From Paraburkholderia azotifigens (GTDB lineage Bacteria > Pseudomonadota > Gammaproteobacteria > Burkholderiales > Burkholderiaceae): DNA of 64,000 nt. Both the position numbers and the translations under genes were made by a program. The DNA lies in assembly GCF_007995085.1 (NCBI RefSeq), contig NZ_VOQS01000003.1:2914001-2978000 (forward strand). The letters are read 5' to 3'. Below the pieces are notes generated by a model that was given only the letters and a program-made list of their open reading frames with translations, searched no databases and had not been told where the DNA came from. Of the stretch, positions 5,904 through 30,324 are shown one piece after another. Every line of letters begins with the position of its first letter. Position 1 is the first letter of the stretch.

Positions 5904-6010
5904 ACCCGTCGCAGCGGGTTCCCGTTCCCGTGCGAACTCGCCCCGTGCTCTTGAAATAGCTCACCGTTCACCGGTGTCGCATCCACGGCAGGATGCGCCG
6001 GATGCCGTAT

Positions 6011-9644: not shown

Positions 9645-10342
9645 TCCCCTCCAGATCTGCCTCCTTGAAATTCCCCACGCTACCGTTGAGTGCGATCCGC
9701 GTGAGTTGCGTCGCCGTCCCTGACGAGGGGATGAGAACGGGAGAGCCCCTTTGTGTCATCGCGATGGCGCTCCGCGAAAGAGTTTTGGTCAGATTCTGCG
9801 GCCGGATCATAGCGTGTCGGCGTTGAAATCCACGTGCGGTACCGATCAAACCTGCCGCGTCGCGATGCCGCTCGCCCAAGCCGTCATAGACAGACCCCTG
9901 ATATCCATGAAAAGCGGATTTATGCCGCCCCGGTTCACGACATTTCCCAACGATTGTTGTCATCGCTCGACGCCCAGAGAAGGCCCGTGTCATTTCGAAA
10001 CGATTTACGTCAAAAACGGGTAAAACGAGCGCTTTCGATTCACATCCCATTCAAGCGACGCGCTCGAATTTGAACGAAAAGTACCGGGGTTACCAAGGGA
10101 AGCCCTTGCTGGACAAGGCTCAGCAATCTAGGAATTTAGAAACAATTTCTGTAAATGCACTCTAGATGGATCAGAGCCGGTGGCAGCACCGTTGTCCAGA
10201 GACGAGTCATGGTCCAGGGACGTTTCAAATGACATCAGCATGCGTGATCTCTTTCCAAATATGAGCCGACCTGGCACAAGTGGCCTCTAGTCCGCGCCCC
10301 CGGCACTTCCAATGCGATTCTCCACGGTCCGACGACATCCCT
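9645..10342. other. Intergenic stretch, possibly rearranged
   Basis: About 700 bases between the truncated secreted protein and the end of the T6SS operon. A 174-codon leftward frame covers part of it, but I recognise no domain and its start has no ribosome site. The end of the T6SS operon shows no obvious hairpin with a T-run here. Confidence 0.4.
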
Positions 10343-11605: not shown

Positions 11606-11733
11606 CGCAGCCTCTCCATACCGCCCGCGCTACTGTGGGCGACGAATTGTTTCCAACGAATCTGGCGCTTTCAGACGACCTGCGCAGAATGTAACTCACG
11701 TGACGAGCGGCACGCCCGATGAACGTGAGCGGA

Positions 11734-15800: not shown

Positions 15801-17050
15801 TGCTGCGACCGCGACGGGCGCGTCAGCCCGTATTCGAGGAAAATTTTCTTCTCGAAGAGGTCGCGCAGGAACGCAGGCTGCAACATCAGGTCGTTGATTG
15901 CGCCGCCCGGCTCCTGGCGTCCATCGCCCATATTGGCGTCGGCGAGTTCATCTGCCGCGCCGTCGGTATACAACATGACACTGTCGCGTTGCGACCCGGC
16001 TGCCGGAGGCAATGCATCGAGTTGCGCCACCGATTGCCCGCCCTGCGTCACGCTCCACTGTGCAAACTCGCTCGCGTCACCTGTGAGGTAAATGCCACGG
16101 AAAAAGAACGGTTCGTGGTACGCGCTCGCGCGCAGCAACTCGTCGACATAGAGCTGCAGTTGCGCACGCATCGCGTCGATGCGTGAAGGCAGTTGCAGGA
16201 ACTGCCGCGCGTCGAGGTGTGCCGAATCGAGTGCGAACAGTTCGGCGCTTGCATCCGAAACCGAACGCATCACGCTGTTCATTGCCGTGTCGACCCAGTC
16301 GGGCTGATAGGTCGTCGACAGATCGTATGGCGACGACCAGCCGAGCATGCTCGCCCGCATCGGTTCCGGCAGCGCACGCGCAAAGGTCGGGAAGCCGGGC
16401 AAGGCCTCGCAGCCGGTGATGACCACATAGACGGCGAAGCGCATCGCGAAACGGTTCTGTGCGAGCCAGAGACGGCGATGCGCGAGCTTCGCGTGGCGCA
16501 CGAGTTCGAGGCGCGCGTCGGTGTTGTCGGCGAGCAGCGTGGCGGCCGGAACCGTGATCACGACGGAATCGAACGGCCGTTGCTGCCGATAGTTGCGGCA
16601 CAGGCTGAGAAACTCATCCCACGGCTTGCCGTCGCCATCGTCATCCGGCGAGCCGAGATAGGCCGCCTTGATATCGACCACGATGCCGCGGTCGAAGAAA
16701 TGCCACGAAATGCCCTGCGTCGCAGCGGGGCTCGCGGCGTCAGCGCCGAGTACGCTGGCCACGCCCGCCTGGGCGATCGGCAGTGGTCGCGGATCGTCTC
16801 CTTCGTTGAGGATCATGATCCACGGAATGTTGTACCGCTCCGCGCGCGTCGCGATATTGCCTTCGATCAGTTCGACTGCCTGGCGAAACGCGCTGCGCAG
16901 CGAGTCCGAGCGCAGACGCACGATCTTGCGCTCGGCTTGCGGCTTCGCGTGCGAACCGTGGACCGCGAAATACAGCACGGCGCCCAGCACGACGCATACG
17001 ACGAGCGTGAGCAGCGCGATCGAAAGCAGAAACAGGTTGCTCGTCAGCAT
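12881..17050 (-). CDS. tssM: T6SS membrane-complex protein TssM (IcmF-like) without a P-loop
   Basis: A 1389-residue inner-membrane protein that joins TssL and TssJ to span the envelope. The start at 17050 is preferred because GGGAG lies 8 bases upstream and the frame opens with a membrane helix (residues 4-31). Another helix lies near residues 434-455, and the large periplasmic part follows. The cytoplasmic NTPase-like region is recognisable but degenerate: where P-loop TssMs have G-P-P-G-S-G-K-T, residues 81-88 read L-N-E-G-D-D-P-R, and D-T-A-G has become D-I-K-A (126-129). Nucleotide binding is therefore unlikely. The gene overlaps tssA by four bases. Confidence 0.93.
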   Translation of the reverse strand: MLTSNLFLLSIALLTLVVCVVLGAVLYFAVHGSHAKPQAERKIVRLRSDSLRSAFRQAVELIEGNIATRAERYNIPWIMILNEGDDPRPLPIAQAGVASVLGADAASPAATQGISWHFFDRGIVVDIKAAYLGSPDDDGDGKPWDEFLSLCRNYRQQRPFDSVVITVPAATLLADNTDARLELVRHAKLAHRRLWLAQNRFAMRFAVYVVITGCEALPGFPTFARALPEPMRASMLGWSSPYDLSTTYQPDWVDTAMNSVMRSVSDASAELFALDSAHLDARQFLQLPSRIDAMRAQLQLYVDELLRASAYHEPFFFRGIYLTGDASEFAQWSVTQGGQSVAQLDALPPAAGSQRDSVMLYTDGAADELADANMGDGRQEPGGAINDLMLQPAFLRDLFEKKIFLEYGLTRPSRSQHLTRPVMSRALRWSSIALLGGWGIGLAVATVQLSHRNSELMAALGSLRRDAGERAAAAQQGQELPADWYRRKALALIVLNQNLKTDSAWTVFMPGSWSIVDDLNARVKERFEREFGEIAVAALEREMYARVSQLTGVGRDPSTGQLIAGDDCAAPGGVRADASAAPSLAVDDLPPMRALQLYVSNVDQFDAALQALQRLQHPAADNADALRLVVRYALGAELQGNVSGSLPYFYRERNGMTAARTSGIDLVSVQQALRCTLDKGAQQVDNGLFTNNPLLVAERTVTDNLNALSVSDAGAGDFSKLTAGYRAVVGGIDAQRDLLASGKGSWLHQAQFTPGPAYDRTLMRVAQSRLLGADLATQIRQRDDTGFQAFRSELALRFGGTNSGIVWVDKDARYSISPDRAAMRDSLSSLLNQPFMVAPRNRELPTLSDGSTIVWDRAQLDQALALGDVRKRFLAEGMTNMPATMRPTIEEALDLQFARLILDQTAAAATVTTTQSDQDSAAFDAARVRLARIEALLTELGASAQLEDLQMLVSADAIAHLQRVDNALTQSELYMTRQDNGGDGVRGGRSPVLAAFGVADAAALAPYLDQQAARALSLGKQASVYLAPLDASSATAPLVQRWQAINRDLERYQLKNPNSSLLRLEQFALSVAADPGPAGCMSKFTGRPSTNGEGDYFAILHARLYDRLLARCSESYVFDLRQRWANFASAFNETVAGRQPFDNSSVIHVATRADAVSADFGELGQVLKRYAPVSEAFHATRANTAQASVAGGKLRQFIDNFDQVRTLLAPLYPSDDGAPNGYDLNVEFRANRGGEIAANQVIDWTLTVGSQSISMNDAPHTVHWDYGTPVSLVLRFAKDSPLTATADPQQRALSTDGRTLTWQFSDPWALISFINRQRVADTSPRGDSTAQLLKFEFPLGTVDPANLALLPKQAHGRVFVRLALMPAGKKTPLPWPGSFPVRAPDWTAL

Positions 17051-17138
17051 GGGCGCACTCCCACACATAACCGGCATCCACGCGAGTGCATCGAAAGCAT
17101 GGCGGCAGGCCCGACAGCTGGCGTAAAACAGCGAACAT

Positions 17139-17891
17139 TCATGAACTTCTCCCCGTCACCGGGTCGGCATGCAGCGCGTCGCGTACGGGCCACGACTGCC
17201 ACAACCACAGCATTTCGGAAATCGCCAGCAGCGACACGGCGGCGAGCATCAGAATCACAGTCCAGCGGCTCACGGTCGGCAGCTTGCGCGGTGCAACGTG
17301 CGACAGGGTGTTCCCATAAGCCGCCTCGGACAACACGCGCTCACGCCCGCCGAGGTCCGGGCGACGCTGATAGACGAACTCATAAAGTTCCTCGCGATAG
17401 CTGCGCAGACGCGCCGCCGCGTCGGTATCGCGAAAGCGCCCCTGGAAGCCCATCGCCAGTGCGAACAGATAAAGCCGCGCGAGGTTGCGGTCCGACGGTT
17501 CGCGGTCCGACAGCAGTTGCTCGATGCGACGGAAAATCTGGTCGCCCGCGACGTTGGTGCGAAAGAGCGTCGATTCGAGCAGATAGCCCGTCCAGCGATC
17601 TCGCCCGGACCACTGAGAATTCAGCAGTATTTCGTCGGCGAGGACCGCTTTCAGATAGCGGGCGTCGGCGATCGTCTCCATCTCGAAGCGCGTGCTGTCA
17701 CGCCGCGACTGCAGCGTCTGGATTTCGAGCAGATCGAGCAGATGACGACTCATGCTCTGCGCGGCGAGGTCCGGGTCGGCATCGGGCAACTCGGAAAATC
17801 GCGTCTGCGCCCTGACGAGTTCGTCGAGAAACGTGCGGAACTGTTCCGTCACGAGATCGCCTTCTTCGGGTTCGGGTCGGTTGCGTGCCAT
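17139..17891 (-). CDS. tssL: T6SS membrane-complex protein TssL (IcmH/DotU)
   Basis: A 250-residue protein with the DotU helical domain: A-R-Y-L-K-A-V-L-A-D-E-I-L-L followed by W-x-G-R-D-R-W, then Y-L-F-A-L-A-M-G-F-Q-G-R-F-R. One C-terminal membrane helix lies at about residues 211-232. No peptidoglycan-binding domain follows, so anchoring to the wall would need another protein. The ATG at 17891 is chosen because it leads straight into the conserved domain; a start 43 codons upstream would overlap tssK and add a His/Ala-rich stretch encoded by a repeat. It works with TssM and TssJ in the envelope complex. Confidence 0.9.
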   Translation of the reverse strand: MARNRPEPEEGDLVTEQFRTFLDELVRAQTRFSELPDADPDLAAQSMSRHLLDLLEIQTLQSRRDSTRFEMETIADARYLKAVLADEILLNSQWSGRDRWTGYLLESTLFRTNVAGDQIFRRIEQLLSDREPSDRNLARLYLFALAMGFQGRFRDTDAAARLRSYREELYEFVYQRRPDLGGRERVLSEAAYGNTLSHVAPRKLPTVSRWTVILMLAAVSLLAISEMLWLWQSWPVRDALHADPVTGRSS

Positions 17892-17915
17892 GCTCAGGTT
17901 GCCTTGATCGTTGCC

Positions 17916-17943
17916 TGCGTGTGCGTGTGCGTGCACGTGTGCG
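17916..17943. repeat. Alternating purine-pyrimidine tract between tssK and tssL
   Basis: Twenty-eight bases strictly alternate pyrimidine and purine, mostly TG/CG steps. Such DNA can adopt the Z form and can vary in length by slippage. It lies in the 85-base gap just upstream of the tssL start. Confidence 0.6.
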
Positions 17944-17976
17944 GGGTCGCTATCGTGATTGCCGTCATTTCGCGCG

Positions 17977-19311
17977 TCATCCCTTGACGAACAGCAGCAT
18001 TTCCTGCGGTCGCTGCGCACTTGCGCCCTCGTTCGGGTTGCCGATCACCAGCAGCTCGCTCGCCAGCACCAGCGCGTGCTCGGCTTGAACCTCGAACAGC
18101 AGGTAGCCCGAACCCGAACGCAATCCGAGATCCTCGGCGTAGTCGATGCCGCGCCGCGCGGCGCCCAGCACGCGGCGGCTGCGCAACGACGCATAGACCG
18201 ACTGGGAGCCGATAACGGCGCCGTCCATCCACGCCAGCAGATCGCGATCCGACTGGCCGCGCAGACCGACCACGAGGCGCTCGCCGATCCAGTCCGGATG
18301 CAGCGAGATTTCGAACGCGCCGTGCCGGAATTCGAACTTGTGCTCGCGGTACTCTTCGTTGACTTCCGACATCGACTCGCGCAGCGAGCGCAACAGCGGC
18401 GTGAATACCGAAAGCGGATCGGCGTGATCGTAGTCGGCAGGCACGGGCGGCAGGCCGCCGGGCTTGAGCATCGCCAGCGACCCGTTGAGCGACGCCAGCG
18501 ACAGATACAGCGAGAGCGGATGAAGATGCGGCGTGCGCAGCGTTGCTTCGGCGAGCGGCAATGCGCTCAGCAGGCTGCGCAGGCGGTCCTTGAGTTCCAG
18601 CTGCGTCAGCCGGTCGTCGACTTTCGACGAGGGATTCGCGGTCTGCCGCGCAACGAAAGCAGCCTTGCCGCGCAGTTGCCCGAGCAGGGACGCCACGCTG
18701 GTCCAGAGCGGATTGTCGCGCGCCACCTCCAGCAGCGGCGGCAGATGCTCGCCGAGCCGCACCACCTCGTTGTCCTTGTACAGCGAGCCAAGCCGCAGAT
18801 ACACGTGCATCGCCGAGGGCAGTTCGCCCGCCGCGAGCGCGAGATTGGGCATTAGTCGCGGGATATCGGCGGGCGGCGCATCGGAAACCTGATCCTCGAC
18901 CGGCGCGCTCGCACTCGAACGGAAGCGCTTGATCTGCGCACTACGGCGCATCGTGGCCGCAACAGGCAACACCAGATAGAAATCGATCGGACCATTCGAG
19001 AGGGCTGCCGCGAACGGTTCGAGCGACAGTTCAAGGCGCCCCGCGCCTTCCGCTTCCGCGTGATAGGTGACGGCCGTGCCATCGGGCATGATCGCGTCGA
19101 GTTCGAGCACACGCAGCAAACCTGCGGGCAGCAGGCCGTGGTCAAATACCAGGCGCCGCACGCCCCAGCTGAACGGCGCCGCTGCAAGCGTCTGCCACGC
19201 AACCAGTGAATCGATTCGCGATGCCATCTGCTGAAAATGCTGCGGCGAGAGCAACATGCCCTCGAACCATTCGATACGGTCGGTCACCGCCATGTTGGCG
19301 TCATGCATCAT
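17977..19311 (-). CDS. tssK: T6SS baseplate protein TssK
   Basis: A 444-residue cytoplasmic baseplate protein that links the TssEFG wedge to the membrane complex. The N-terminus I-E-W-F-E-G-M-L-L-S-P-Q-H-F-Q-Q is the TssK signature, and the protein has the family length. The start codon overlaps the tssJ stop (ATGA), which fixes the first ATG of a near-tandem pair as the likely start. The next gene, tssL, begins after an 85-base gap, the longest among tssJ-tssK-tssL, where a repeat tract sits. Confidence 0.95.
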   Translation of the reverse strand: MMHDANMAVTDRIEWFEGMLLSPQHFQQMASRIDSLVAWQTLAAAPFSWGVRRLVFDHGLLPAGLLRVLELDAIMPDGTAVTYHAEAEGAGRLELSLEPFAAALSNGPIDFYLVLPVAATMRRSAQIKRFRSSASAPVEDQVSDAPPADIPRLMPNLALAAGELPSAMHVYLRLGSLYKDNEVVRLGEHLPPLLEVARDNPLWTSVASLLGQLRGKAAFVARQTANPSSKVDDRLTQLELKDRLRSLLSALPLAEATLRTPHLHPLSLYLSLASLNGSLAMLKPGGLPPVPADYDHADPLSVFTPLLRSLRESMSEVNEEYREHKFEFRHGAFEISLHPDWIGERLVVGLRGQSDRDLLAWMDGAVIGSQSVYASLRSRRVLGAARRGIDYAEDLGLRSGSGYLLFEVQAEHALVLASELLVIGNPNEGASAQRPQEMLLFVKG

Positions 19312-19832
19312 TTCGCATCCAGAACGGAAAAGTTGGTGCCTTCGAGCTGCACCACCATGTGGCCGCTGAAGTGTTCGATCCGCACGCGATGCGCGCCCGG
19401 GCCTTCGTAATTGGCAAAGACAAATGCGCCGGCAACACGCGGCCCGGCCAGGTCATCCCCATTCACCTCGACGCGCTGGCCCGGCACGATCTCCCAGCCG
19501 CGATACCGCAGATTCTTCGGGTAGGTGCTGACGAGATCGTTTCGACCCGCGAACCATTTCGAGGCCGGCATTTCGGCAATGCGGGCAAGTAACGCGTCAT
19601 CGCTGACGAGAACGATGTCCACGGCGACGGCGCTGTTGTTGTTCACTTCGTCGCTGGCGCTCAACGTCACTTGCGACCATTTCGCTTTCTCACCGCTCAT
19701 CCCGAGGACGCTGCATCCTCCGAGCGCACCCGCAACGCACACCGCTGCGAGGAGCCCCGTCGTCCCCTTCATCAGCCGCCTGCATGAGCGTGTCCAGTCG
19801 CGCGTGAATACGCGCATCCCACCGTTGATCAT
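19308..19832 (-). CDS. tssJ: T6SS outer-membrane lipoprotein TssJ
   Basis: Contains a lipoprotein signal (M-K-G-T-T-G, hydrophobic core, lipobox L-G-G-C) and a TssJ-like beta-sandwich domain with D-D-A-L-L-A-R-I-A and W-F-A-G-R-N-D-L. TssJ anchors TssM at the outer membrane. The ATG at 19832 overlaps the stop of the transporter gene before it (ATGA), hence this choice. Starting at the methionine 20 codons later (19772, with AGGCGG nearby) would give a more usual 20-residue signal, so the N-terminus is uncertain. Translational coupling to a transporter gene is unusual for tssJ. Confidence 0.88.
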   Translation of the reverse strand: MINGGMRVFTRDWTRSCRRLMKGTTGLLAAVCVAGALGGCSVLGMSGEKAKWSQVTLSASDEVNNNSAVAVDIVLVSDDALLARIAEMPASKWFAGRNDLVSTYPKNLRYRGWEIVPGQRVEVNGDDLAGPRVAGAFVFANYEGPGAHRVRIEHFSGHMVVQLEGTNFSVLDAK

Positions 19833-21256
19833 CTCGCTCCCACTCCAATTCCCATCACCACGATCAGCGACGCCACCATCACGACGCAGCCCGCGGCAAG
19901 CACAAGCTGTCCGCGCGTGAAAGTGAAGCGCAACACCGGGTTCAATTCGACGACTGCACCTCGCGTGTCGACGGCGGCCACCCGTTCCGACGGCAGACCT
20001 GCCGAGACCAGTGCGATCACCGTACACACCGAAAGCAGGCTCAACACGTTGCGCGGTCCCTCACAGATCAGATCGACCGTGACGAGAAGGATGCCTGCGG
20101 CCTCGACGGGCAGATTGAGCAGTGACAGCACCAGCCCCGTATATCCGACGGTTGCGACACCGTTCTGCCCGGCCGAAACAAATGCGGCAATCACAGATGC
20201 GCCGCAGATCACCACGATTTCACCCGGGCCAAGCGGCCGTTCGTAGAGGTTGGCGACAAACACCGTCGCCAGCGTGTAATACAGCGCCGAGCCCGCGCGA
20301 ACGAAAACCGACCCGAACGGTACGACCAGTTCCACGACACCGCGACTGAAACCGAGGCGCTCGCTCATCGCTTCGATGGTATGGGGAATGGGTGCCGTTG
20401 CGCTGCCCGATGTGAACCCGATCAAAAGCGGTGCCTTCAGGCTGCCGAGCACGCGCAAGAACGGCTGCCCCGCTCGCGCGGCGATCGTGCCGATCGCGAC
20501 GGCCGAAAGCACGATAGAGGAAACGGCGAAGCACAGCAGCAGCCCGCTCATCGCATCGAGCGTGGCGCTTTGCGTGTGCGAAGTCAGATTGGCAGCGACG
20601 CCCAGCACCAGGACCGGGATCAGCAGGTTCGCATGCGCAATGATCGTTTCGAGCGAGCGATAGACGCCCTCGAACACATTGCTCAGCATCTTCGTCTTCT
20701 CGCGCGAAAGTGCGGCGAACGCCATGCCGAACAGGAGCGTGCCCGTCAGGATACCGAGGGATCGCCCGTCCGCAAGCGCACGGTAGAAATTGTCGGGGAA
20801 AATCTCGGCGATGCTGAGCACGCCAGTCGCTGCTTCATCGCTACCGCCGCCGTGATCGAACAACGTCACGCGCACTTCTTCCGCATCGCTGGCGCTCTTG
20901 AGCACGAGTTCGCCAAGGTGCGCATGCGCGGCGGCGGACAGGTGCGCGCCCGGCATGATGAGCACGCCCAGCAGCGTCCCGACGATTGCGCTGACCACCA
21001 CGAGCCCAAGCGCAAGACCGACGATCGTGCCAACGCGCGTGCGCGGCTTCGGCAAGGCGATAACCTGCCGAAGGCCGAAGAATGTCGCCACGACCAGCAG
21101 CGGGATCGCTGCCATGTTGACCACCGAAAGATACAACTGGCCGACGAAATACGCGAATTGTCCAACGGGCTCGGCGAACACGCCGCACAGGCCGCCCACC
21201 GCCAGGCAGATGATAAGGCCGAGCGTGCTGTGCGAGAGCGTACGAAGCGTTCTCAT
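19829..21256 (-). CDS. Dicarboxylate/amino-acid:cation symporter (DAACS/SLC1 family), T6SS-linked copy 1
   Basis: A 475-residue multi-helix membrane protein. The helical-hairpin region reads G-F-T-S-G-S-A-T-A-P-I-P-H-T, comparable to the serine-rich HP1 loop of GltPh-type carriers, and helices 7-8 follow with V-P-F-G-S-V-F. The start at 21256 overlaps the racemase stop (ATGA), and its own stop overlaps tssJ in the same way. It would import an acidic or neutral amino acid with Na+ or H+. The canonical NMDGT motif is not obvious; the matching place reads R-A-G-S-A-L-Y, so the substrate may differ from aspartate or glutamate. Confidence 0.85.
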   Translation of the reverse strand: MRTLRTLSHSTLGLIICLAVGGLCGVFAEPVGQFAYFVGQLYLSVVNMAAIPLLVVATFFGLRQVIALPKPRTRVGTIVGLALGLVVVSAIVGTLLGVLIMPGAHLSAAAHAHLGELVLKSASDAEEVRVTLFDHGGGSDEAATGVLSIAEIFPDNFYRALADGRSLGILTGTLLFGMAFAALSREKTKMLSNVFEGVYRSLETIIAHANLLIPVLVLGVAANLTSHTQSATLDAMSGLLLCFAVSSIVLSAVAIGTIAARAGQPFLRVLGSLKAPLLIGFTSGSATAPIPHTIEAMSERLGFSRGVVELVVPFGSVFVRAGSALYYTLATVFVANLYERPLGPGEIVVICGASVIAAFVSAGQNGVATVGYTGLVLSLLNLPVEAAGILLVTVDLICEGPRNVLSLLSVCTVIALVSAGLPSERVAAVDTRGAVVELNPVLRFTFTRGQLVLAAGCVVMVASLIVVMGIGVGAR

Positions 21257-21954
21257 TGCGGGCGATTCCAGCCACGCTCGCACGCGTATTTGACAGTTGC
21301 ACGTGCCAGTTCGAGCGAGCTATCGATCAGCTCGACTGGCGATGCGGCGATTCGCTGCGCTGCCAGCGGGATTTCCGTACAGGCCATCAGCGCCATCGTT
21401 ACGCCTAGTTCCGCGAGCATCGCGAGAGCGGTCTCGAGGTGGGCCGCAGCGGAATCGAGATCTCCTGACTTGACTTCGTCGATGCAGGCAGCGACGAGCG
21501 CTTGCATCGCATCGTCCGGGGTGACGGGTTCGATGTCACGCTCAGCGAGCGCACGCTGATAGAAACCGGACACCAGCGCGCCGCCCGTCGCGAGCACCGC
21601 GACACGTCGTGCAGTGGGTGGCACTGCGGCTACGCAGATTTCGGCGATATTCAGCACGGGAGCGGCACTGTGCGCACGGATCTGCGCATACCAGTGATGC
21701 GCCGAATTGCATGGAATCGCGATCAACCCGACACTGTTCCTGTTCAGCATGTCGATGCCTGCGAGCAGCGCCGGCAGGGGATCGGCACCATCGTCGAGAA
21801 TCGCGCTCGAACGGTCTTCGATGTGCGGAAGGTTCGCCACCAGGAGCGGCAGATGCTCCTGGTCGCGGCTCGCTTGCGTCAGTCGCACGACCTTGTCCAT
21901 GAAGTCCACGGTCGCTAGCGGCCCCATGCCGCCCAGAATGCCGATGAGTGCCAT
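21253..21954 (-). CDS. Aspartate/glutamate racemase-family protein
   Basis: A 233-residue cytoplasmic protein opening I-G-I-L-G-G-M-G-P-L-A-T, typical of the PLP-independent Asp/Glu racemases. Both catalytic cysteines are present: C82 in I-P-C-N-S-A-H and C192 in M-A-C-T-E-I-P-L. It would interconvert L- and D-forms of an amino acid, probably aspartate, glutamate or a broader set as in YgeA/RacX. It lies between two amino-acid symporters inside the T6SS operon, so uptake and racemisation are probably co-expressed with secretion. D-amino acids can alter peptidoglycan; that role here is inference. Confidence 0.88.
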   Translation of the reverse strand: MALIGILGGMGPLATVDFMDKVVRLTQASRDQEHLPLLVANLPHIEDRSSAILDDGADPLPALLAGIDMLNRNSVGLIAIPCNSAHHWYAQIRAHSAAPVLNIAEICVAAVPPTARRVAVLATGGALVSGFYQRALAERDIEPVTPDDAMQALVAACIDEVKSGDLDSAAAHLETALAMLAELGVTMALMACTEIPLAAQRIAASPVELIDSSLELARATVKYACERGWNRPQ

Positions 21955-21963
21955 GGCGGGGTC

Positions 21964-23238
21964 CTAGATCTTCAGCGGACGAGGACAGATGACGGACACG
22001 GCGGCGGCATTGCCGATCACGAGAATCAGCGTGCGCAACATGTCGCAAATGGGATCCACTGCAAGAAACAGAATGAATGCCGCCTCGAACGGCAGCCGCA
22101 GATAGGAGCACGTCATGCCCACCAGCGAGACGGTCACGAGTCCAGTCATGCCAGCGGAGGCGAACCCCGCCAGCACCGACGCGAGCAGGACGGTGACGAC
22201 CTCGACCACGCCGAGCGAATGGCCGTACAGCTGGGCGATAAAGAGCGTCGCGCACACGTAGTAGACCATCGGGCCGACGCGCAACAGCGAGATCGTCAGC
22301 GGCACGAGCAGTTCGACGCGCGAACGGGCGAAGCCGAGGTTATCGACGAGACTTTCGATCATGCTCGGCATGCACGCCGCGCTGTTGCGGGTAGCGAGCG
22401 CGAGTGCAAAGGGCGCGCGCAATGCGTCCAGCGTCTTGCCGAGGCTGTGCGTCGAACGCTTCCAGATGATGACGGCTGCAAGCACCAGCAGTAGCGCCGA
22501 GGTAATGAAAAACGCCAGCACAAACTGGAGCATCGCGTGCAGCGGACCGACACCCGACTTGCCCAGTTGTGCCGCGCTCATGCAGAACAGAATGAGCGGC
22601 AGCGCGTAGCTCAGCCAGTGCATCAGCTTCTGGCAAGCGTGGTAGATCGTTTCCAGCGACTGGCTGAGCCCCACGGAAATGCGCTCCGGCACCCGCCCCA
22701 CGGCAAGGCCGAACAGCAGCGCGAAGACCAGCGCCTTCAGTGCGTCACCGTTGGCGAGCGCAGCGAAAATGTTGGTCGGCACGAGGCTGGTCAGCACATC
22801 GGAGAAATTGAGCGTCTTTTGCGGCAGGTCGGCGCCATAGAGGTTCATCACCGTGTCGCTCGACGAACTGTCGCTGCCCACCATCAGGCCGAACGTCTGC
22901 ATCGTGGCCGTCGAGATGTTCGCGCCGGGATGCATGATCAGCAGCACGATCGCGCCAACAACCGCAACCGTTACCGATGCGCCGAGAAACACCGTGACCA
23001 CACGCATCAGCAGACGCGAGGTGCCACCATCGCGAAAGAGTCGCTGCAGGCTGAAGATGACTGCCGAGATCATGAACGGCAAGGTCGTCATCTTCAACAG
23101 ATCGACGTAGATGTCGCCAAGAAAGCCGAGCTTCTGGGACGCCTCGGGTGCGAACAGCCCGAAAGCGCCGCCGAGTGCCAGACTGCCGATGACGACCCAC
23201 GGGTTGAGCACGAATGCATAGATCCTGCTGGAGTTCAT
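21964..23238 (-). CDS. Dicarboxylate/amino-acid:cation symporter (DAACS/SLC1 family), T6SS-linked copy 2
   Basis: A 424-residue integral membrane protein related to copy 1 by overall plan, with about eight hydrophobic helices and paired re-entrant hairpins. The loop equivalent to HP1 reads A-T-R-N-S-A-A-C-M-P-S-M, and the helix-7 region reads R-V-G-P-M-V-Y-Y. As in copy 1 the NMDGT motif is lost, and the two carriers differ in these substrate-facing places, so they may carry different amino acids. It ends 9 bases before the racemase gene. The start at 23238 follows an A/G-rich site. Confidence 0.85.
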   Translation of the reverse strand: MNSSRIYAFVLNPWVVIGSLALGGAFGLFAPEASQKLGFLGDIYVDLLKMTTLPFMISAVIFSLQRLFRDGGTSRLLMRVVTVFLGASVTVAVVGAIVLLIMHPGANISTATMQTFGLMVGSDSSSSDTVMNLYGADLPQKTLNFSDVLTSLVPTNIFAALANGDALKALVFALLFGLAVGRVPERISVGLSQSLETIYHACQKLMHWLSYALPLILFCMSAAQLGKSGVGPLHAMLQFVLAFFITSALLLVLAAVIIWKRSTHSLGKTLDALRAPFALALATRNSAACMPSMIESLVDNLGFARSRVELLVPLTISLLRVGPMVYYVCATLFIAQLYGHSLGVVEVVTVLLASVLAGFASAGMTGLVTVSLVGMTCSYLRLPFEAAFILFLAVDPICDMLRTLILVIGNAAAVSVICPRPLKI

Positions 23239-23270
23239 TGTTCTGGTCTCTTTTTTTCGCGCTGTATGAA

Positions 23271-24187
23271 TTAGTGATCGGCGGCTTGCAGGACAGTGCT
23301 GACGTCCAGCTTCGTGCTGCGATCAGCAAGGAACTGGTTGACGAACGAAAGCAGCGCCGGCTCGTTTACGTTGACGCCAATGGCAAGCGTGTCTTCGAGA
23401 TCCTGAAGCGTCACGACGCGCAACCGCAGCGACGCCGTGGGGTCGACCTTGAGTACCCGCTTCACTTCGAATTCGTCGCGATACGCAGCGGTGACATCCC
23501 CTGCATTGAGGGCCTTGAGCACATCCTCCCAGGTCGCGTAGCTACGCACCTGCGCGTGCGGGAAGTTGTTGACCACGTAGCCCGCGTATGACGAATTCGC
23601 CACCACGCCGATGGTGCTGTCATATGAGCGCACCACTTCCGGAACGGATCGGCCGTGCGCGAGTTGCGCGAACTTCACGCGGTTGAGCAGCAGCGCGCGT
23701 TTCAGGCGCAAATACGGTGTGCTGAAAGCGATCACCGTCGCGCGGGACAACGTACGCGAGAGCTTGCTGACTGCGATATCGGCCTGCCCTTTCGCGAGCA
23801 GGCTCACCGTGTCGTCGAACGTGTGTGCGTCACGATTGAATCGCACCTTGACGTGGAGCTTCGCCGCCATCTCGCGAGCAAGATCGATGTCGAGCCCTGT
23901 GAGCTTGCCGTCGTGCTCCTCAAAGAACGGCGGCTGATCGACAGAGAGGACGGCAACCACGAGTTCCCCCGGCCGATGATGCGCGCGAACTCGGGCGCAA
24001 GCAGGCGGCCATCCGGCATCTGCACGAGCCCGGTCGACGTGACAACGGGTGCGCTGGCCGGAGCCGCCGCGGCGGGCGCGCCAACCGGCTGAGGCGTGAC
24101 AGCAAATGCGCTTTGAGCAGTCACGCCTGCAGCCAGCAACGCAACCCCCGTGAGGCAGTTGCCAAGCGCGCGCCGAAAACCATGCAT
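23271..24187 (-). pseudogene. Periplasmic amino-acid-binding protein (SBP_bac_3), frameshifted
   Basis: Two frames together make one protein. The first gives a signal peptide (M-H-G-F-R-R, cleavage after A-F-A), a Pro/Ala linker and F-A-R-I-I-G-R-G. The second continues E-L-V-V-A-V-L-S-V-D-Q-P-P-F-F and the whole family-3 binding domain (L-D-I-D-L-A-R-E-M-A-A, G-V-V-A-N-S-S-Y). The shift is at the run of five C on the + strand (23966-23970); one more base restores about 305 residues. It would bind an amino acid in the periplasm. No ABC permease is linked, so it may serve the neighbouring symporters or act as a sensor. A start at 24250 is possible. Confidence 0.8.
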
Positions 24188-24263
24188 CACGGTTCGCACA
24201 TGCACGCGGCGTGCGTCTTTGCGGACGGGGGTGAGAAGAGAACGCGACATGAAGTTACCGGTT

Positions 24264-24518
24264 TCAAAGAGTCGAAGAAGCGGGAAGCGCGGCCATGTCG
24301 GCGGCAGCCGGCGATGACGGTTGCGCGACGGCGGCGGCCGGTGCGGCGACGGGCGGCGACACGCGCGCGTCCTGGGCAGCCGTTTCCGACGTAGGCGACG
24401 AATGATTCATGCGCGCGCCGATTTCCACACCCAGCAGAAACAGAAGCACGCACAGCAGGACTGCACAGGTGATGGCAATCGTCACCATCCGCGAAGTCAT
24501 CGAAAAAACGTATTGCAT
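24264..24518 (-). CDS. Small single-pass membrane protein
   Basis: An 84-residue protein with one strong membrane helix (about residues 11-31, V-T-I-A-I-T-C-A-V-L-L-C-V-L-L-F-L-L-G-V) and a Pro/Ala/Ser-rich tail. AGGGA precedes the ATG at 24518. It lies 13 bases after the PAAR-like gene in the T6SS operon. The tail composition suggests a flexible periplasmic linker. No family is recognised; an immunity protein or an envelope accessory are both possible. Confidence 0.65.
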   Translation of the reverse strand: MQYVFSMTSRMVTIAITCAVLLCVLLFLLGVEIGARMNHSSPTSETAAQDARVSPPVAAPAAAVAQPSSPAAADMAALPASSTL

Positions 24519-24531
24519 GGTTCCCTCGCGT

Positions 24532-24918
24532 TCAGGCGGTCATCGTGGTGAACTGCGCCGGCGCGACGACCTGAATCACACCACCCCACGCGCAGGTCAG
24601 CTTCGACGAGTTCTGCAGCGCCGGCATCGATCCGATCAGCACCGTCGGCGAGCCGGGCGCCCACGGGGCGGGCGTAACGGGGATGCACGGCATCGGCGTG
24701 AGCGCGCCCAGGGCGGCGGCCGTCGCCGCGGCCACCATGGGGTTGGCCATCGAACTGCATTGCCCGAAGGGCATGATGTTGACCATCGGCGCGCAGTCCA
24801 TGATGGTGGCCGCCGGCGCGCCGCACATCACCCGGTTGGCGGGCAGCACCTGCAATGCCGACGGCGCGACGCCGAAACTGCATTGCAGCGTGGTGCCCGA
24901 AGTAACCTGAATCCCCAT
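24532..24918 (-). CDS. PAAR-like DUF4280 protein (T6SS spike tip)
   Basis: A 128-residue cysteine- and glycine-rich protein. It starts M-G-I-Q-V-T-S-G-T-T-L-Q-C-S-F-G and repeats short beta motifs such as C-G-A-P-A-A-T-I-M-D and M-V-N-I-M-P-F-G-Q-C. This is the DUF4280 plan of PAAR-like proteins, which cap the VgrG spike. No toxin domain is fused; the protein ends with the PAAR-like fold. It belongs to the vgrG-MORN-PAAR set and would sharpen the spike or adapt a separate effector to it. Confidence 0.85.
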   Translation of the reverse strand: MGIQVTSGTTLQCSFGVAPSALQVLPANRVMCGAPAATIMDCAPMVNIMPFGQCSSMANPMVAAATAAALGALTPMPCIPVTPAPWAPGSPTVLIGSMPALQNSSKLTCAWGGVIQVVAPAQFTTMTA

Positions 24919-24939: not shown

Positions 24940-25662
24940 TTATCCCCTGACCCACTTTTCCAGATTCTTGACAAGGCGGGGTCCGCGCGCACCGCCCGCC
25001 TGCGGCGTGCCCGTATCCGGTGCGCGCCACTCGCCTTGCGGCTTGCCCTGCCGGTAGAGCCGTTCCTGCATCACCGTGCCGTCCGGTGCAAAGCGGCGCA
25101 CGGTGCCATGCAGCAGGTCCGCCTGATAGGGCGAACTCTGAACCAGGTCTCCGTTGTCGGCATATTCGTGCGTCTCCCCTTCGAGCTTGCCCCTGCTGTA
25201 GCGCGCACGCTTGACCACGACGCCGTCGTGCATGAACACGGCTTCGCGCTCCAGCTTTCCCGCCTCGTACGTCATCTGCGACGTGACGAGCCCCGAAGGC
25301 GCATAAGTCGCGCTCTCGCCGTGCAGCAACCCGCTCACATAGTGATTACGGCTCGCGAGACGCCCGGCTTGATACAAAGATGTCACGCCGTCGAGCTTGC
25401 CCTTGCGATACTGAGCCTCCTGCACCAGTTGGCCTTGCCCGTCGAAAATGCGCAGGCTGCCGTCGAGCTGGCCATGCACATAATTCGCGCGCGAGAGAGC
25501 CGTCCCGTTGGGCGCATAACTCACCGTTTCGCCGTGCGGCACGCCATGAGCGAGCGACGCGCGGTTGACCAGGTTGCCGTCCGCGTCACGCGTCTCGACC
25601 AGGACGGTTTCGACCTCGTCCGCACCGGGCGGCAAACTGGCAGCAAGGGTTGGCGTTGACAT
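24940..25662 (-). CDS. MORN-type repeat protein between vgrG and the PAAR-like gene
   Basis: A 240-residue protein built of about eight repeats of roughly 22 residues with the pattern Y-x2-G-x-L-x-G, for example Y-V-H-G-Q-L-D-G, Y-R-K-G-K-L-D-G and Y-S-R-G-K-L-E-G. These are MORN-2 repeats, also seen in YwqK-type proteins annotated as antitoxins. Its place between vgrG and a DUF4280 protein suggests an adaptor or chaperone loading cargo on the spike, or an immunity-type protein. The ATG is 8 bases after the vgrG stop. Confidence 0.8.
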   Translation of the reverse strand: MSTPTLAASLPPGADEVETVLVETRDADGNLVNRASLAHGVPHGETVSYAPNGTALSRANYVHGQLDGSLRIFDGQGQLVQEAQYRKGKLDGVTSLYQAGRLASRNHYVSGLLHGESATYAPSGLVTSQMTYEAGKLEREAVFMHDGVVVKRARYSRGKLEGETHEYADNGDLVQSSPYQADLLHGTVRRFAPDGTVMQERLYRQGKPQGEWRAPDTGTPQAGGARGPRLVKNLEKWVRG

Positions 25663-25670
25663 GAGCGTTT

Positions 25671-27596
25671 TCAGTTGAGCTGGACGATGCCGCCCTTCAG
25701 AGCGAGCTGACCACCGCCGTCGACCGTCTGCGTGGCCGAGGCTTTGTGCGAAACCGTCATGCCTTCGGTGCTGAGCGTCGTGCCTGCCTTGCTCGCGTGC
25801 GACGTACCCGCTTCGCTCGCCAGCGACGTCCCCGCCTTGATGCTGATCGAGCCGATGACTTCGATCACGAGGTTGCCGCCCACTTTCAACGTATAGTTGC
25901 CGTCGATCTTGTGCGTGTGATCACCGCTGATGTTGTGCGTGAATGCCGCGTGGTTCGTGTGGGTTTCGTCGCCCGTCACATCGACGGTGCGCGTGCCCTT
26001 GACGGTATGCGTCTCCTTGCCCTCGCTGACCTCGATACTGCGATCGCCCTTCTGCACCACGTGCGTCTCCGCGCCCGCCTTGACCGTGGTTGAAAGCGCG
26101 TTTTCGATCTCGACTGTCATGTCCTTCTGCGCATGGACGTAAAGCTCCTCGGAATTGAGCTTGTCTTCCATGCGGATTTCATTGCCGGCCGTGCCGCCTT
26201 TCGACGAACGGGAGCGAATCACGCTTTGCGTCTGCATCGACGGCAAGGTCACCGGCACCGCGTTGGTGCCGTTGTACACACAGCCCGTCACGAGCGGGCG
26301 GTCGGGATCGCCGTCGACGTAGCTGACCACGACCTCTTCGCCTATGCGCGGCAGAAACAGATGTCCCCAGCCCGGTCCCGCCGATGCCTGCGCGACGCGA
26401 ACCCAGCACGAACTGTTCTGATCGGCATCGGGCGTGCGATCCCAGTAGAACTTGAGCTTGATGCGCCCTTGGGCGTCGGTCCAGATTTCCTCGTCCGATG
26501 GGCCGACCACTTTCGCCGTATGCGTGCCCGATACGACGGGCCTCGGCGTCACGAGCGGCGCGCGAAACGGCACGGTGGCGGGAAAGACGTCGAACTCGTT
26601 GCCATACATCAGGTTCGAGGCCGTGTGGCGCACGGCACGCACGACATAGCTGACATTGAGCGAGCTGTCGGGATGGCCGCTCAACGTGAAGGTCGTGCCT
26701 GCCGTGAGGCCGTAGTAGCCGCCTTCGCCGTGCCCCGTCTGCTGCGCGACGTTGTGCGCCTGGAGAAGCGTTCCGGCGATCTGGTCGCCGTGCGACGCGG
26801 CGACGTATTTGCCGGGGAATGTGAAGCGCGACCCGGTCGGAATGCTCGACGTGCCTTTCGACGACGACAGCAACGTGGCCGCCTGCGTGTAGTCGTAATC
26901 GCTGACGATATGCTCGCCTGCCACTACGCCGCGCGACATTTCGAATGCGCTCAGTCGCTGCACCTGGGGACCGATGCTCGAATCGGGTGCGAAATAGAGC
27001 GTCCCCGCCGTCGTCGCATCATGTGCGGATGGATCGTCCGCCAGCACCATCGTGTGCGCGCCGTCCGCGAAGGAGAAGAAGTAGAAGATCCCTTCCTCTT
27101 CCATCAGGCGCGAGATGAACCGGAACGCGCTCTCGTCGTACTGGACGCAATACTCGCGCACCAGATAGTTGCCAGCGTGCTTCGTGCGGTCCTCGAAGGT
27201 CACGCCAAAGGTGCCCAGCACCTGCTTGATGATGTCGAGCGCGCTCTGGTTTTGCCAGATGACGCGATCCTGACCGAGTGTCAGCAACCACAGACGCGGC
27301 GCCAGTTCGGCGGAATAGAAACCGTACTGCACGTCTGCGCCCGAATGCGCGAAACGCGTGACGATGCCATTGAAATAGCGCGTGGCGCCCGAGTGATCTT
27401 TCAGCGTCACCGTCACACTCTTGCCCACGATCTGCTGCGTGTCGAGCGCCTTGTTGGTCGAACGCATGCGCAGATCGAAGTGGTACAGCTCCGATATGGC
27501 TTCACGTCCGCCGAAACCATCGAGCAGCAGCACATCCGTCCCGAACGGTGTCGAGACGGAGGCAAAGCAGTTCGCCTGGCTGGGCACGGTGGACAT
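25671..27596 (-). CDS. tssI: T6SS spike protein VgrG (TssI)
   Basis: A 641-residue spike subunit with a gp27-like base in the first 350 residues (Y-H-F-D-L-R, then F-G-V-T-F-E-D-R, and Y-D-E-S-A-F-R-F-I-S-R-L-M-E-E-E-G-I). Next come the OB-fold G-R-I-K-L-K-F-Y-W-D-R and the R-V-A-Q-A-S-A-G-P-G-W-G motif, and a repetitive beta-helix needle to the end. No extra C-terminal effector domain is present. The start at 27596 is set by a strong AAGGAGG 9 bases upstream that lies inside the end of clpV. Trimers sit on the Hcp tube and take the DUF4280 tip. Confidence 0.95.
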   Translation of the reverse strand: MSTVPSQANCFASVSTPFGTDVLLLDGFGGREAISELYHFDLRMRSTNKALDTQQIVGKSVTVTLKDHSGATRYFNGIVTRFAHSGADVQYGFYSAELAPRLWLLTLGQDRVIWQNQSALDIIKQVLGTFGVTFEDRTKHAGNYLVREYCVQYDESAFRFISRLMEEEGIFYFFSFADGAHTMVLADDPSAHDATTAGTLYFAPDSSIGPQVQRLSAFEMSRGVVAGEHIVSDYDYTQAATLLSSSKGTSSIPTGSRFTFPGKYVAASHGDQIAGTLLQAHNVAQQTGHGEGGYYGLTAGTTFTLSGHPDSSLNVSYVVRAVRHTASNLMYGNEFDVFPATVPFRAPLVTPRPVVSGTHTAKVVGPSDEEIWTDAQGRIKLKFYWDRTPDADQNSSCWVRVAQASAGPGWGHLFLPRIGEEVVVSYVDGDPDRPLVTGCVYNGTNAVPVTLPSMQTQSVIRSRSSKGGTAGNEIRMEDKLNSEELYVHAQKDMTVEIENALSTTVKAGAETHVVQKGDRSIEVSEGKETHTVKGTRTVDVTGDETHTNHAAFTHNISGDHTHKIDGNYTLKVGGNLVIEVIGSISIKAGTSLASEAGTSHASKAGTTLSTEGMTVSHKASATQTVDGGGQLALKGGIVQLN

Positions 27597-27600
27597 GCGC

Positions 27601-30324
27601 TTACGCCTCCTTCGGCAGGAAGCGGAATTCGATGTCGCCCGTCGCGCCCAGCGCGAGATGCACGCCACCGAACGGCTCCGAAATCGAAATCCTCTCCAGC
27701 ACCTGGCGCGCCAGTTCCGGCAGGACCGATTGCGTGAGAATGTGGTCGACATTGCGCGCGCCGCTGTCCACTTCCTTGCAGCGCTGTGCGATCAGCGTGG
27801 CAAGGTCCGCGTCCCACGTCAGCTGCGCGAGATGGTTGCGGGTAAAGCGCTGCGCGAGCCGTTCAAGCTTCAGATTGACGATCGCGTTGATCTGCGCGTC
27901 GCCGAGGTGGTAGTACGGCACGAGCACGAGCCGCCCGAGAAACGCCGGACTGAACTGCCTGAGCAGGGCCGGACGCAGCTTCTCGATCAACTCTTCGGGC
28001 GACGGCCGGCGGCCTCCACGTGAGGCTTCCGTGATCACGTCCTGCGCCGCGTTCGATGTAAGCAGGATCAGCGTGTTCTTGAAGTCGATGGGGACGCCCT
28101 CGCCGTCCTCCATCACGCCCTTGTCGAACACCTGGAAGAATAGCTCCAGCACGTCCGGGTGGGCCTTCTCCATTTCGTCGAGCAGCACCACGCTGTACGG
28201 GCGGCGGCGCACCGCTTCCGTCAGCACGCCGCCACGGCCGTAACCGACATATCCCGGCGGCGCGCCCTTCAGTCCCGAGACGCTATGCGCCTCCTGGAAC
28301 TCGGACATATTCACCGTGATCATGTTGCGCTCGCCTCCGTACAGCAGATCCGCAAGCGCAAATGCCGTCTCGGTCTTGCCGACACCGCTCGGCCCAACGA
28401 GCAGGAAGACGCCCACCGGTTTGCCTGGATCGTCGAGGTCGGCGCGGAACGTACGCACACGGCGCGCGATCGCGTCGAGCGCTTCGTCCTGGCCGACTAC
28501 GCGTTCGGCAAGCTTGTCCTGAAGGTAAAGCACCGTATGCAGTTCGTCGGCGAGCATCCGGCCGACGGGAATGCCCGTCCATCCGGATATCACCTTCGCG
28601 ACCGTTTCCGAATCGACGCATACAGGGACCATCGGCTCGTCGTTTTGCACGGCTTCGAGCCCCTTCTCCAGCCGCGACAGATTCGCTGTCAGCGACTCAC
28701 CCTCTTCGGGCTCGCCCGCACCGCTTTGATCCGCCAGATAGCCGCGAATTTTCTTGCGCCAGGCGAGCACCTCTTCCACCGCGCGCTTTTCCGTCGAGAG
28801 CTTTTCGGTAAGACGCGAATGCTGCGCGCGCTCGTCTTCGAGCTGCTTCGTGATGGCAGCGATAGCGTCGGCACGCTCGGCGCCCATCGCAGCTTCGTGA
28901 CGCGCGATCCGAAGCTGGTTTTCCGCGGTATCGAGCGAGCGGCCCAGCGCTTCGATCTCTTCGGGCAACCCGTTCTGGCCGATCGCGACGCGCGCGCAGG
29001 CCGTGTCGAGCACGCTGATCGCCTTGTCCGGCAACTGCCGCCCGGAGATGTAGCGATGCGAGAGCTTCACGGCATCGCGCACGGCTTCGTCGAGAATCTC
29101 GACCCCGTGATGCTCTTCGAGCTTCTGCACCATGCCGCGCAGCATCTCAATCGCGACGGGTTCGCTCGGCTCCTCGACCTTGACGACCTGGAAGCGTCGC
29201 GCCAGCGCCGGATCGCGCTCCACGTACTTCTTGTACTCGGCCCAGGTCGTAGCGGCAATCGTGCGCAGTTCGCCGCGCGCGAGCGCCGGCTTGAGCAGGT
29301 TGGCCGCATCGCCCTGACCTTCGCTGCCGCCGGCACCAATAAGCTGATGCGCTTCGTCGATGAAAAGAATCACCGGCACAGCCGACGACTTCACTTCCGC
29401 GATCACCGACTTGAGCCGGTTCTCGAACTCGCCCTTCACACCCGCGCCTGCCTGCAACAGCGCAAGATCGAGCGAACGGACGGACACGTTGGTCAGCGCG
29501 GGCGGCACGTCGCCTTGCACGATACGCTGCGCGAAGCCTTCGACGACAGCCGTTTTGCCGACACCCGCCTCGCCCGTCAGGATCGGGTTGTTCTGACGGC
29601 GGCGCAGCAACACGTCGATCAGTTGCCGGATCTCGGCGTCGCGCCCGCGAATTGGGTCGATGTTGCCTTCGCGCGCAAGGCCTGTGAGGTCGACGGTGTA
29701 TTGATCGAGCGCGGTCTTGCGGCCCTGGTTCGCGCCGCCCTGCGCCATGGAAGGCATCGCCGCTTGCGCTTGCGGCGCGGCAGCGGGCGTTGCATTGGCG
29801 TGTCCTGCTTCCGACGTTGCCGGCGAACCCGCCTGCGCGCCGCCTGCATCTTCAGCCGAACCTGCCAGCATGGCACCCAGGCGCTCGCGCAAGCTCGCAC
29901 GCGGAATGTTCAGCAACGCCGGCGCGGATTCGAGCAGCATGCCGCGCAGACTGTCCACCTCGAGCAGTGCCAGCACGAGCGTGCCGGATCGGATCTGCTG
30001 TTCGCCGAGCAACATCGAACTCAGCAGCCACGCTTCCTGGAAAAGCGGAGAAAAATTCGGCGACAGCGCGGGCGTGCGTCCATTGCCGCGCTTGAACAGA
30101 TCGACGGCCTTCTGTAGTTGCGCGGTGAGCGTTTCAGGTTTGATTCCGAAGTGCGCGAGAATCGCGCGCAGGTCCGGCGCATCGGATTCGAGCAGCGTCA
30201 ACAGAAGATGTTCGACGTCGACGTTGTAATGCGTCTGACGCACGCACAGTTGCGCCGCCTGCTCCATCGCAAGCTTGCATTCCGGGTTGAGCCGGCTTAA
30301 CAGGGTTCGGATATCGATGTCCAT
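27601..30324 (-). CDS. tssH: T6SS sheath-recycling AAA+ ATPase ClpV (TssH)
   Basis: A 907-residue Clp/Hsp100 protein. The N-domain covers about residues 1-150. The first AAA+ module has Walker A G-E-A-G-V-G-K-T and Walker B V-I-L-F-I-D-E-A-H, a middle coiled-coil follows near 420-530, and the second module has G-P-S-G-V-G-K-T and V-V-L-L-D-E-M-E-K. A C-terminal D2-small domain completes it. It disassembles contracted TssB/TssC sheath. The gene follows tssG by 11 bases and carries the vgrG ribosome site in its last codons. Confidence 0.96.
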   Translation of the reverse strand: MDIDIRTLLSRLNPECKLAMEQAAQLCVRQTHYNVDVEHLLLTLLESDAPDLRAILAHFGIKPETLTAQLQKAVDLFKRGNGRTPALSPNFSPLFQEAWLLSSMLLGEQQIRSGTLVLALLEVDSLRGMLLESAPALLNIPRASLRERLGAMLAGSAEDAGGAQAGSPATSEAGHANATPAAAPQAQAAMPSMAQGGANQGRKTALDQYTVDLTGLAREGNIDPIRGRDAEIRQLIDVLLRRRQNNPILTGEAGVGKTAVVEGFAQRIVQGDVPPALTNVSVRSLDLALLQAGAGVKGEFENRLKSVIAEVKSSAVPVILFIDEAHQLIGAGGSEGQGDAANLLKPALARGELRTIAATTWAEYKKYVERDPALARRFQVVKVEEPSEPVAIEMLRGMVQKLEEHHGVEILDEAVRDAVKLSHRYISGRQLPDKAISVLDTACARVAIGQNGLPEEIEALGRSLDTAENQLRIARHEAAMGAERADAIAAITKQLEDERAQHSRLTEKLSTEKRAVEEVLAWRKKIRGYLADQSGAGEPEEGESLTANLSRLEKGLEAVQNDEPMVPVCVDSETVAKVISGWTGIPVGRMLADELHTVLYLQDKLAERVVGQDEALDAIARRVRTFRADLDDPGKPVGVFLLVGPSGVGKTETAFALADLLYGGERNMITVNMSEFQEAHSVSGLKGAPPGYVGYGRGGVLTEAVRRRPYSVVLLDEMEKAHPDVLELFFQVFDKGVMEDGEGVPIDFKNTLILLTSNAAQDVITEASRGGRRPSPEELIEKLRPALLRQFSPAFLGRLVLVPYYHLGDAQINAIVNLKLERLAQRFTRNHLAQLTWDADLATLIAQRCKEVDSGARNVDHILTQSVLPELARQVLERISISEPFGGVHLALGATGDIEFRFLPKEA

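Follow-up and report, generated by a model that had tools for sequence, protein, structure and literature searches.

We analysed a 64,000-nucleotide stretch of the Paraburkholderia azotifigens genome (contig NZ_VOQS01000003.1, positions 2,914,001 to 2,978,000; hereafter the window), from an assembly of 9.7 Mb in 5 contigs, in which a type VI secretion system (T6SS) gene cluster on the minus strand encloses a cassette of four genes. Read along that strand, the order is tssB, tssC, hcp, tssE, tssF, tssG, tssH, vgrG, a MORN_2 gene, a DUF4280 (PAAR-like) gene, a gene for a protein of 84 amino acids (aa), the cassette, tssJ, tssK, tssL, tssM and tssA; the labels tssC, hcp, tssE, tssF, tssG, tssH and tssJ are presumed from position. 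By Pfam and NCBIfam, the cassette, which lies between the PAAR-like gene and tssJ, consists of an SBP_bac_3 solute-binding protein (SBP), an SDF/DAACS-family carrier (SDF1), a racemase and a second SDF-family carrier (SDF2). An initial annotation had read these genes as a module of a binding protein, two DAACS symporters and an Asp/Glu-type racemase within the T6SS operon. The four genes are present, but the binding-protein gene is split between frames, and the carriers, which do belong to the SDF/DAACS family, have lost the N310, D312 and N401 expected of symporters.

As that annotation had described, ATGA overlaps join the racemase stop to the SDF2 ATG, the SDF2 stop to the tssJ ATG, and tssJ to tssK. 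Across related loci, with the window counted, ATGA occurs at the stop of the racemase in 30/43, of SDF2 in 43/47 and of tssJ in 29/46, counts in which relatives share ancestry and an ATGA at a stop is no proof that the next gene starts there. We also compared 15 proteins of the cluster across 30 loci; median identity to the window is greatest for SDF1 (83%), with tssH second (82%).

Results

Both carriers lack the ion-site residues of GltPh and GltTk

The Pfam SDF domain covers most of the length of both carriers (214 bits for SDF1 and 161 bits for SDF2; cut-off 27.9). As described for GltTk and GltPh in PMC5110648 and PMC12668577, residues N310, M311 and D312 help to form the substrate site and three sodium sites, N401 is in contact with Na1, and R397 grips the side-chain carboxylate of the substrate. 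Neither N310, M311, D312 nor N401 is present in any of 161 SDF1 sequences (distinct, longer than 380 aa, drawn from our loci and from 120 listed of 950 homologues) or in any of 46 SDF2 sequences (a set that leaves out the distant L154-L156 proteins and the short L034). Position 311 is Arg in every member of both sets. In SDF1, position 310 is always Leu (161/161), 312 is Val, Ile or Met, and 394 is Asp in 153/161; in SDF2, 312 is Ala in 44/46 and 394 is Glu in 33/46. Arg397, by which SDF carriers of acidic substrates can be told, is retained throughout (161/161 SDF1, 46/46 SDF2).

Since N310, D312 and N401 are lost, the name "symporter" is unsafe for either protein. "Sodium symporter" was dropped as a name, being ruled out by the residues at 310-312 and 401, and their sequences indicate that SDF1 and SDF2 are probably not sodium symporters. 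Among 120 listed of the 181 homologues of the carrier of the distant locus L154, whose given names include spirochaetes, cyanobacteria and Desulfobacterales, Arg311 is found in 120/120 and Arg397 in 118/120. Two distant carriers deviate at 311, with Gln in L156 and Pro in L166. Grouping carriers by N310 alone failed, the second SDF protein of L165, L166 and L169 retaining Asn310; carriers were sorted by position 311, not 310.

SDF1-like carriers altered at position 311 mostly adjoin binding-protein genes

Linkage was examined in three groups of loci: the 30 best from a phylum sample of 329 genomes, 41 of which gave a match; L154-L156; and 10 ordinary SDF loci. Thirteen SDF1-like carriers have Arg (11 cases), Gln or Pro at position 311, and 12 of them are accompanied by a same-strand neighbor of SBP_bac_3 type, the thirteenth (L166/L197) sitting at a contig edge. 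Where 311 is instead Leu, Met or Ile (31 carriers), no such neighbor occurs within the sequence covered (about 1.4 kb per side in most). Two loci of the latter type (L179, L186) show a weak SBP match on the opposite strand. The Fisher value for 12/13 versus 0/31, with three SDF2 rows excluded, is 6e-10, which overstates the association because the loci have common ancestry and the carrier profile was itself built on SBP-linked examples. When ten of the SBP genes were run against Pfam, nine passed; the tenth, at 8762-9562 of L195, scored 20.8 (cut-off 26.4), and a second L195 SBP passes. The SBP calls at L163 and L164 rest on our own profile rather than on Pfam. Two arrangements were noted in passing: L194 carries two convergent SBP-SDF pairs side by side (3506-8043), and in L195 one SDF gene is flanked on both sides by SBP-like genes (8762-11719).

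Carrier and binding protein are also found fused. Eighteen of the 120 listed homologues of the L154 carrier contain PF00375 and PF00497 in one protein of 581-705 aa (P0139, P0142, P0144-P0149, P0151, P0152, P0154, P0157, P0160, P0162, P0163, P0165-P0167), with the SBP part after the SDF part. In a rescan of 10 proteins, in which unfused ones were included on purpose, 5 passed for both domains and one fell below the SBP cut-off. The Treponema-type protein P0207 seems by eye to end in a shortened SBP-like tail, for which Pfam gives no match.

The binding protein is frame-broken in the window and intact in relatives

In the window, a break near 23,960 puts the N-terminal open reading frame (ORF) of the binding protein and its ligand-binding ORF in different frames. 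The gene is a single stop-free frame in all 49 relatives in which both parts were located, a comparison that leaves out L023, L034, L043 and L145 as not comparable. The break may be a mutation or an assembly error. At the positions taken, by analogy with LAO and HisJ, to bind the α-carboxylate and the α-amine, Arg is kept in 54/54 and Asp in 53/54 aligned rows, respectively.

The cassette is a recurrent part of one T6SS lineage

A search with SDF2 returned 38 loci, of which 37 remained after a distant Clostridiales match (L046) was dropped. The full set of SBP, SDF1, racemase and SDF2, with tssJ downstream, is present in all 34 loci that extend past SDF1 (34 of 37), the other three (L023, L034, L043) stopping at a contig edge before it; this count is biased, since the loci were retrieved using SDF2. 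A less biased estimate comes from a family sample of 249 genomes, in which TssK at an expectation value (E) of up to 1e-60 gave 21 matches in 19 genomes: SDF1 shares the contig with 18 of the 21, the two gene starts being no more than about 4.2 kb apart. The survey of T6SS loci of relatives that the initial annotation had called for thus finds the module there, and the arrangement is not due to chance.

TssK was detected in nine genomes of an order sample of 399, with SDF1 at at least 53% identity in five of the nine. In a class sample of 369 genomes, a further SDF1 relative turned up in only three, not counting the genome of the window itself (E up to 1e-36; 29-36% identity). Seven T6SS clusters (L139, L141, L142 and L146-L149) are free of the cassette, with the PAAR gene followed by tssJ.

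The SBP-SDF-racemase set also occurs without a T6SS

Seven of the 25 SDF1-bearing genomes of the family sample, all from one Burkholderiaceae genus, are without a TssK match at E up to 1e-60. Their standalone loci carry SBP, SDF1 and racemase; SDF2 is absent from 7/7 of them, having been seen only with a T6SS. No tss match was found in L133-L137, searched with the full window protein set; L157 and L158 were searched for the cassette, tssJ and tssK only. Since the seven standalone rows nest within the T6SS-linked SDF1 clade (a 40-row node with SH-aLRT 99 in a quick IQ-TREE tree of 62 rows), the SBP-SDF1-racemase set seems, on this phylogeny, to have left the T6SS in that genus. Next to the triad, all five of L133-L137 carry a livK-type SBP, an ATC_hydrolase (PF14196) and an N-carbamoyl-type amidase (Pfam was run on L133 and L135), so that a link of the standalone triads to thiazoline-carboxylate/cysteine metabolism is possible, with one genus representing one shared ancestry. 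A LysR-like gene was seen by eye at L133, the sole locus inspected for it.

The distant carriers of L154, L155 and L156 (26-35% identity in alignment A1) each adjoin an SBP_bac_3 gene, and L154 also has a racemase. By eye, the SBP-SDF pair of L156 (3067-5533) sits among ATP synthase genes in a small, incomplete genome. Complete SBP-SDF-racemase triads occur in L192 and L193, which belong to one genus outside the class, and no tss match was found in the stretches examined around them. In L193 (2423-11666) the triad adjoins murQ, murA, a nagK-like gene (below the NCBIfam cut-off) and an RpiR-family regulator; in L192 (6196-11386) it lies one gene away from anmK. We keep a link to peptidoglycan recycling as a lead, the two genomes being of a single genus.

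The racemase keeps both catalytic cysteines and is dispensable to the cassette

The racemase is nearest to Asp/cysteate racemases and scores 228 bits against the NCBIfam CuyB (cysteate racemase) equivalog, whose cut-off is 190; we did not accept the CuyB name alone as proof of substrate, as an equivalog score is not an activity. The distant L154 racemase, at 145 bits, falls below that cut-off. The two catalytic cysteines pointed out in the initial annotation are there (Cys82 and Cys192), and both motifs are kept in all 51 distinct racemases of the loci set. Since three T6SS clusters (L138, L140, L143) retain SBP, SDF1 and SDF2 without it, the racemase is a dispensable part of the cassette. A Janthinobacterium T6SS cluster without the racemase is also described in the part of PMC8356804 that deals with this cluster.

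Features of the cluster

Coordinates are given in Table 1. Pfam and NCBIfam scans of the tssJ ORF gave no match. An IS110-type transposase gene lies at 47514-48671 of the window, about 11 kb upstream of tssB.

Table 1. Cassette genes, carrier motifs and adjacent T6SS genes in the window
Feature	Position	Strand	Basis and remarks
vgrG (tssI)	25671..27752	-	NCBIfam
MORN_2 protein (YwqK-like)	24940..25662	-	Pfam; PMC8356804 (relevant part)
DUF4280 protein	24532..24918	-	Pfam; PAAR-like by position and PMC8356804 (relevant part)
84-aa hypothetical protein between PAAR and binding protein	24264..24518	-	N-terminal hydrophobic segment, Ala/Pro-rich tail
SBP_bac_3, N-terminal part	23804..24250 (ORF)	-	Signal-peptide-like start by eye, plus linker
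SBP_bac_3, ligand-binding part	23271..23960	-	Pfam
SDF1, SDF/DAACS-family carrier	21964..23238	-	Pfam; S-L-L-R-V-G replaces NMDGT-type motif
SDF1 transmembrane segment 7 (TM7) motif, residues 317-323	22270..22290	-	Arg320 = GltPh Met311 position
SDF1 TM8, residues 395-410	22009..22056	-	Arg402 = GltPh Arg397; Asp399 = Asp394; N401 replaced by Leu
Asp/Glu-type racemase	21253..21954	-	Pfam, NCBIfam; Cys82 and Cys192
SDF2, second SDF-family carrier	19829..21256 (from ATG)	-	Pfam; V-F-V-R-A-G in TM7
tssJ	19308..19832	-	Position and lipobox LGGC by eye
tssK	17977..19311	-	Pfam, NCBIfam
tssL (DotU)	17139..18020	-	Pfam, NCBIfam
tssM (IcmF)	12881..17077	-	NCBIfam, 123 bits, below the 388 cut-off

Discussion

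If the carriers of this cassette are not driven by sodium, how might they work, and what would a T6SS gain from them? The reading we favor, tentatively and with slightly less than even confidence, is that a general, cation-independent carrier linked to a binding protein and paired with an enzymatic sink was taken up by one T6SS lineage, where it probably serves to scavenge amino acids. In the periplasm, the binding protein would collect an amino-acid ligand, and SDF1 would let it pass the inner membrane by exchange or facilitated transport, uncoupled from sodium. Arg311 may take the place of the cation, the residue at this position being the one that swings close to Na2 and the substrate. The racemase could act as a sink that sustains uptake by converting the incoming enantiomer, and SDF2 would be a second carrier, perhaps for the other enantiomer or for an exchange partner. 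For the T6SS, the likely use would be the scavenging of acidic amino acids (such as Asp, Glu or cysteate) in the surroundings of the firing cell and near lysed cells. This gain for the T6SS is the weakest link of the reading.

Several observations weigh against this account. The existence of seven cassette-free T6SS clusters means that the weapon can do without the cassette, and the racemase, the presumed sink, is missing from three clusters that keep the other three genes. Uptake would rely on that sink, since an uncoupled carrier would leak an anionic substrate outward along the membrane potential. In this very genome the binding-protein frame is broken, and the SDF1 tree comes from a quick search and has long branches. 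The association with binding proteins is also looser if the SDF2 carriers of L162, L163 and L164 are added, which have Arg311 and adjoin SDF1 or the racemase rather than an SBP, lowering the count to 12/16; set against 0/31, either count shows the gene tie across lineages that is expected of a secondary transporter operating through a binding protein, among rows that share ancestry. Lastly, the SDF C terminus is cytoplasmic in the known topology. We rejected the fusions as proof of periplasmic delivery, the SBP part following that end, and since the ligand Arg of the SBP part is, by eye, not conserved in fusion P0145, they speak for association, not for delivery.

An account that we consider rather unlikely is that SBP and both carriers act together as a receptor in the inner membrane, signaling to the T6SS the presence of an amino acid or dicarboxylate, from root exudate or lysed neighbors, and so timing its building or firing. 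Such a role was suggested for the T6SS-b of P. phymatum, whose promoter is most active on citrate, according to the relevant part of PMC8356804. It would fit the finding that both carriers lack the ion-site residues yet keep the substrate Arg, the position of the cassette beside tssJ in the T6SS clusters examined, and the restriction of SDF2 to such clusters (with none in the 7 standalone loci). However, genomes that lack this T6SS still carry the SBP-SDF-racemase set, sensing needs no racemase, and a Pfam scan of the cassette parts scanned gave no further domain. The persistence of the triad without a T6SS in one genus would be as expected if the cassette were a mobile metabolic passenger that landed between PAAR and tssJ and was kept for its own metabolic value, with no tie to the T6SS. 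The adjacency of PAAR and tssJ in cassette-free clusters and, by eye, the distant L156 pair among ATP synthase genes would fit as well, but retention of the cassette beside 18 of 21 TssK matches, the ATGA at the SDF2 stop in 43 of 47 loci and the occurrence of SDF2 only with T6SS make a mere passenger quite unlikely.

The initial annotation had suggested that the module edits the producer's own wall for self-protection, or supplies or recaptures D-amino acids during killing. On such a reading the racemase would make D-amino acids, either to edit the wall against T6SS attack by sisters or for export to harm prey. An Acinetobacter racemase (Le et al. 2020) is reportedly a precedent for protection by wall editing, the catalytic cysteines are intact in all 51 distinct racemases, and triads of one genus lie near peptidoglycan-recycling genes. 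Against this, the racemase is the very part missing from three module-bearing T6SS clusters, for which reason we did not favor a wall-editing device; it is closest to Asp/cysteate racemases and has, by eye, no signal peptide; and the set occurs without a T6SS. We regard this role as very improbable, and our sequence comparisons lend no support to wall editing or to a supply of D-amino acids for killing. Because the SBP-SDF-racemase set also exists with no T6SS match nearby, it is not a dedicated T6SS self-protection device. Recapture of D-amino acids, which the same annotation had also raised, or of amino acids in general is possible, and the location of the L192 and L193 triads may point the same way.

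We consider scavenging by a binding-protein-linked, uncoupled carrier the best account of the cassette, and the interesting part of it is the SDF type itself, linked to a binding protein and without cation-site residues. A broader proposal, possible though in our view doubtful, is that SBP_bac_3 proteins and Arg311-type SDF carriers together form another class of secondary transporter that depends on a binding protein, in addition to TRAP and TTT, with a fixed Arg replacing the driving cation; this class would occur in several phyla, sometimes with its own racemase sink, and one T6SS lineage would have incorporated it, thereby joining the weapon and the uptake of the solutes it frees in a single operon. 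If so, it would be a fourth class of such transporters, and the fold of the human glutamate transporters, among the best studied, would be in use without its ion motif. One could then test directly by what means an SLC1-type carrier functions when Arg replaces a bound cation, and whether solute harvesting is built into a T6SS operon.

How does the cassette compare with known systems? Its carriers share the Pfam SDF domain, Arg397 and, in most SDF1, Asp394 with the SLC1-type carriers GltPh, GltTk and DctA; they differ in replacing N310, M311, D312 and N401, with Arg at 311, and in having an SBP gene beside or fused to them. Uncoupled SDF carriers have precedents. In PMC12668577, a reconstructed SDF ancestor exchanges substrate independently of cations, and in the uncoupled clade many carriers adjoin amino-acid enzymes, which are proposed to maintain an inward gradient; the working we suggest for the cassette, with the racemase as consumer, agrees with this proposal. 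The Ext-Int and Anc-Int glutamate transporters of that study resemble ours in the loss of sodium-site residues (in Ext-Int) and the pairing with amino-acid enzymes, but belong to a Firmicutes clade, Anc-Int retains the sodium-site residues, and the term "binding protein" occurs 0 times in the main text. TRAP and TTT transporters, as described in the relevant part of PMC9352664, likewise combine a binding protein with a secondary carrier; here the membrane part is SDF and the binding protein SBP_bac_3. Membership in TRAP was rejected, as Pfam finds this pair in place of DctQ/DctM with DctP or TAXI, and a non-exhaustive literature search found no report of SBP-SDF pairing. The racemase is like the CuyB/aspartate racemase family in being a two-cysteine Asp/Glu racemase above the CuyB cut-off, and differs in being accompanied by a carrier and a binding protein.

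The closest counterpart is the T6SS-b of P. phymatum STM815. From the gene description in PMC8356804, from which we took the order upstream of the SBP, this cluster runs vgrG, YwqK, PAAR-like, hypothetical, SBP, SDF, racemase and SDF, the seven genes named downstream of vgrG (the text says eight) having the same order as in the window. The cassette, tssJ and tssK are all found at locus L159 of P. phymatum, where identities to the window are 99% for SDF1, 99% for the SBP ligand part, 90% for the racemase and 86% for SDF2; the locus differs in that its binding-protein frame is open. In the passages of PMC8356804 on these genes, the authors call the two symporters intriguing and, to their knowledge, previously unreported, note the cluster in other soil bacteria, and consider the SDF pair to be symporters or sensors for a substrate other than that of DctA; SBP-SDF pairing outside T6SS does not figure in the discussion there. 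As an observation, the cassette is therefore not new, having been published for Paraburkholderia phymatum. What is new here is the frame break, the loss of ion-site residues from the carriers, and the linkage of SBP and SDF beyond the T6SS.

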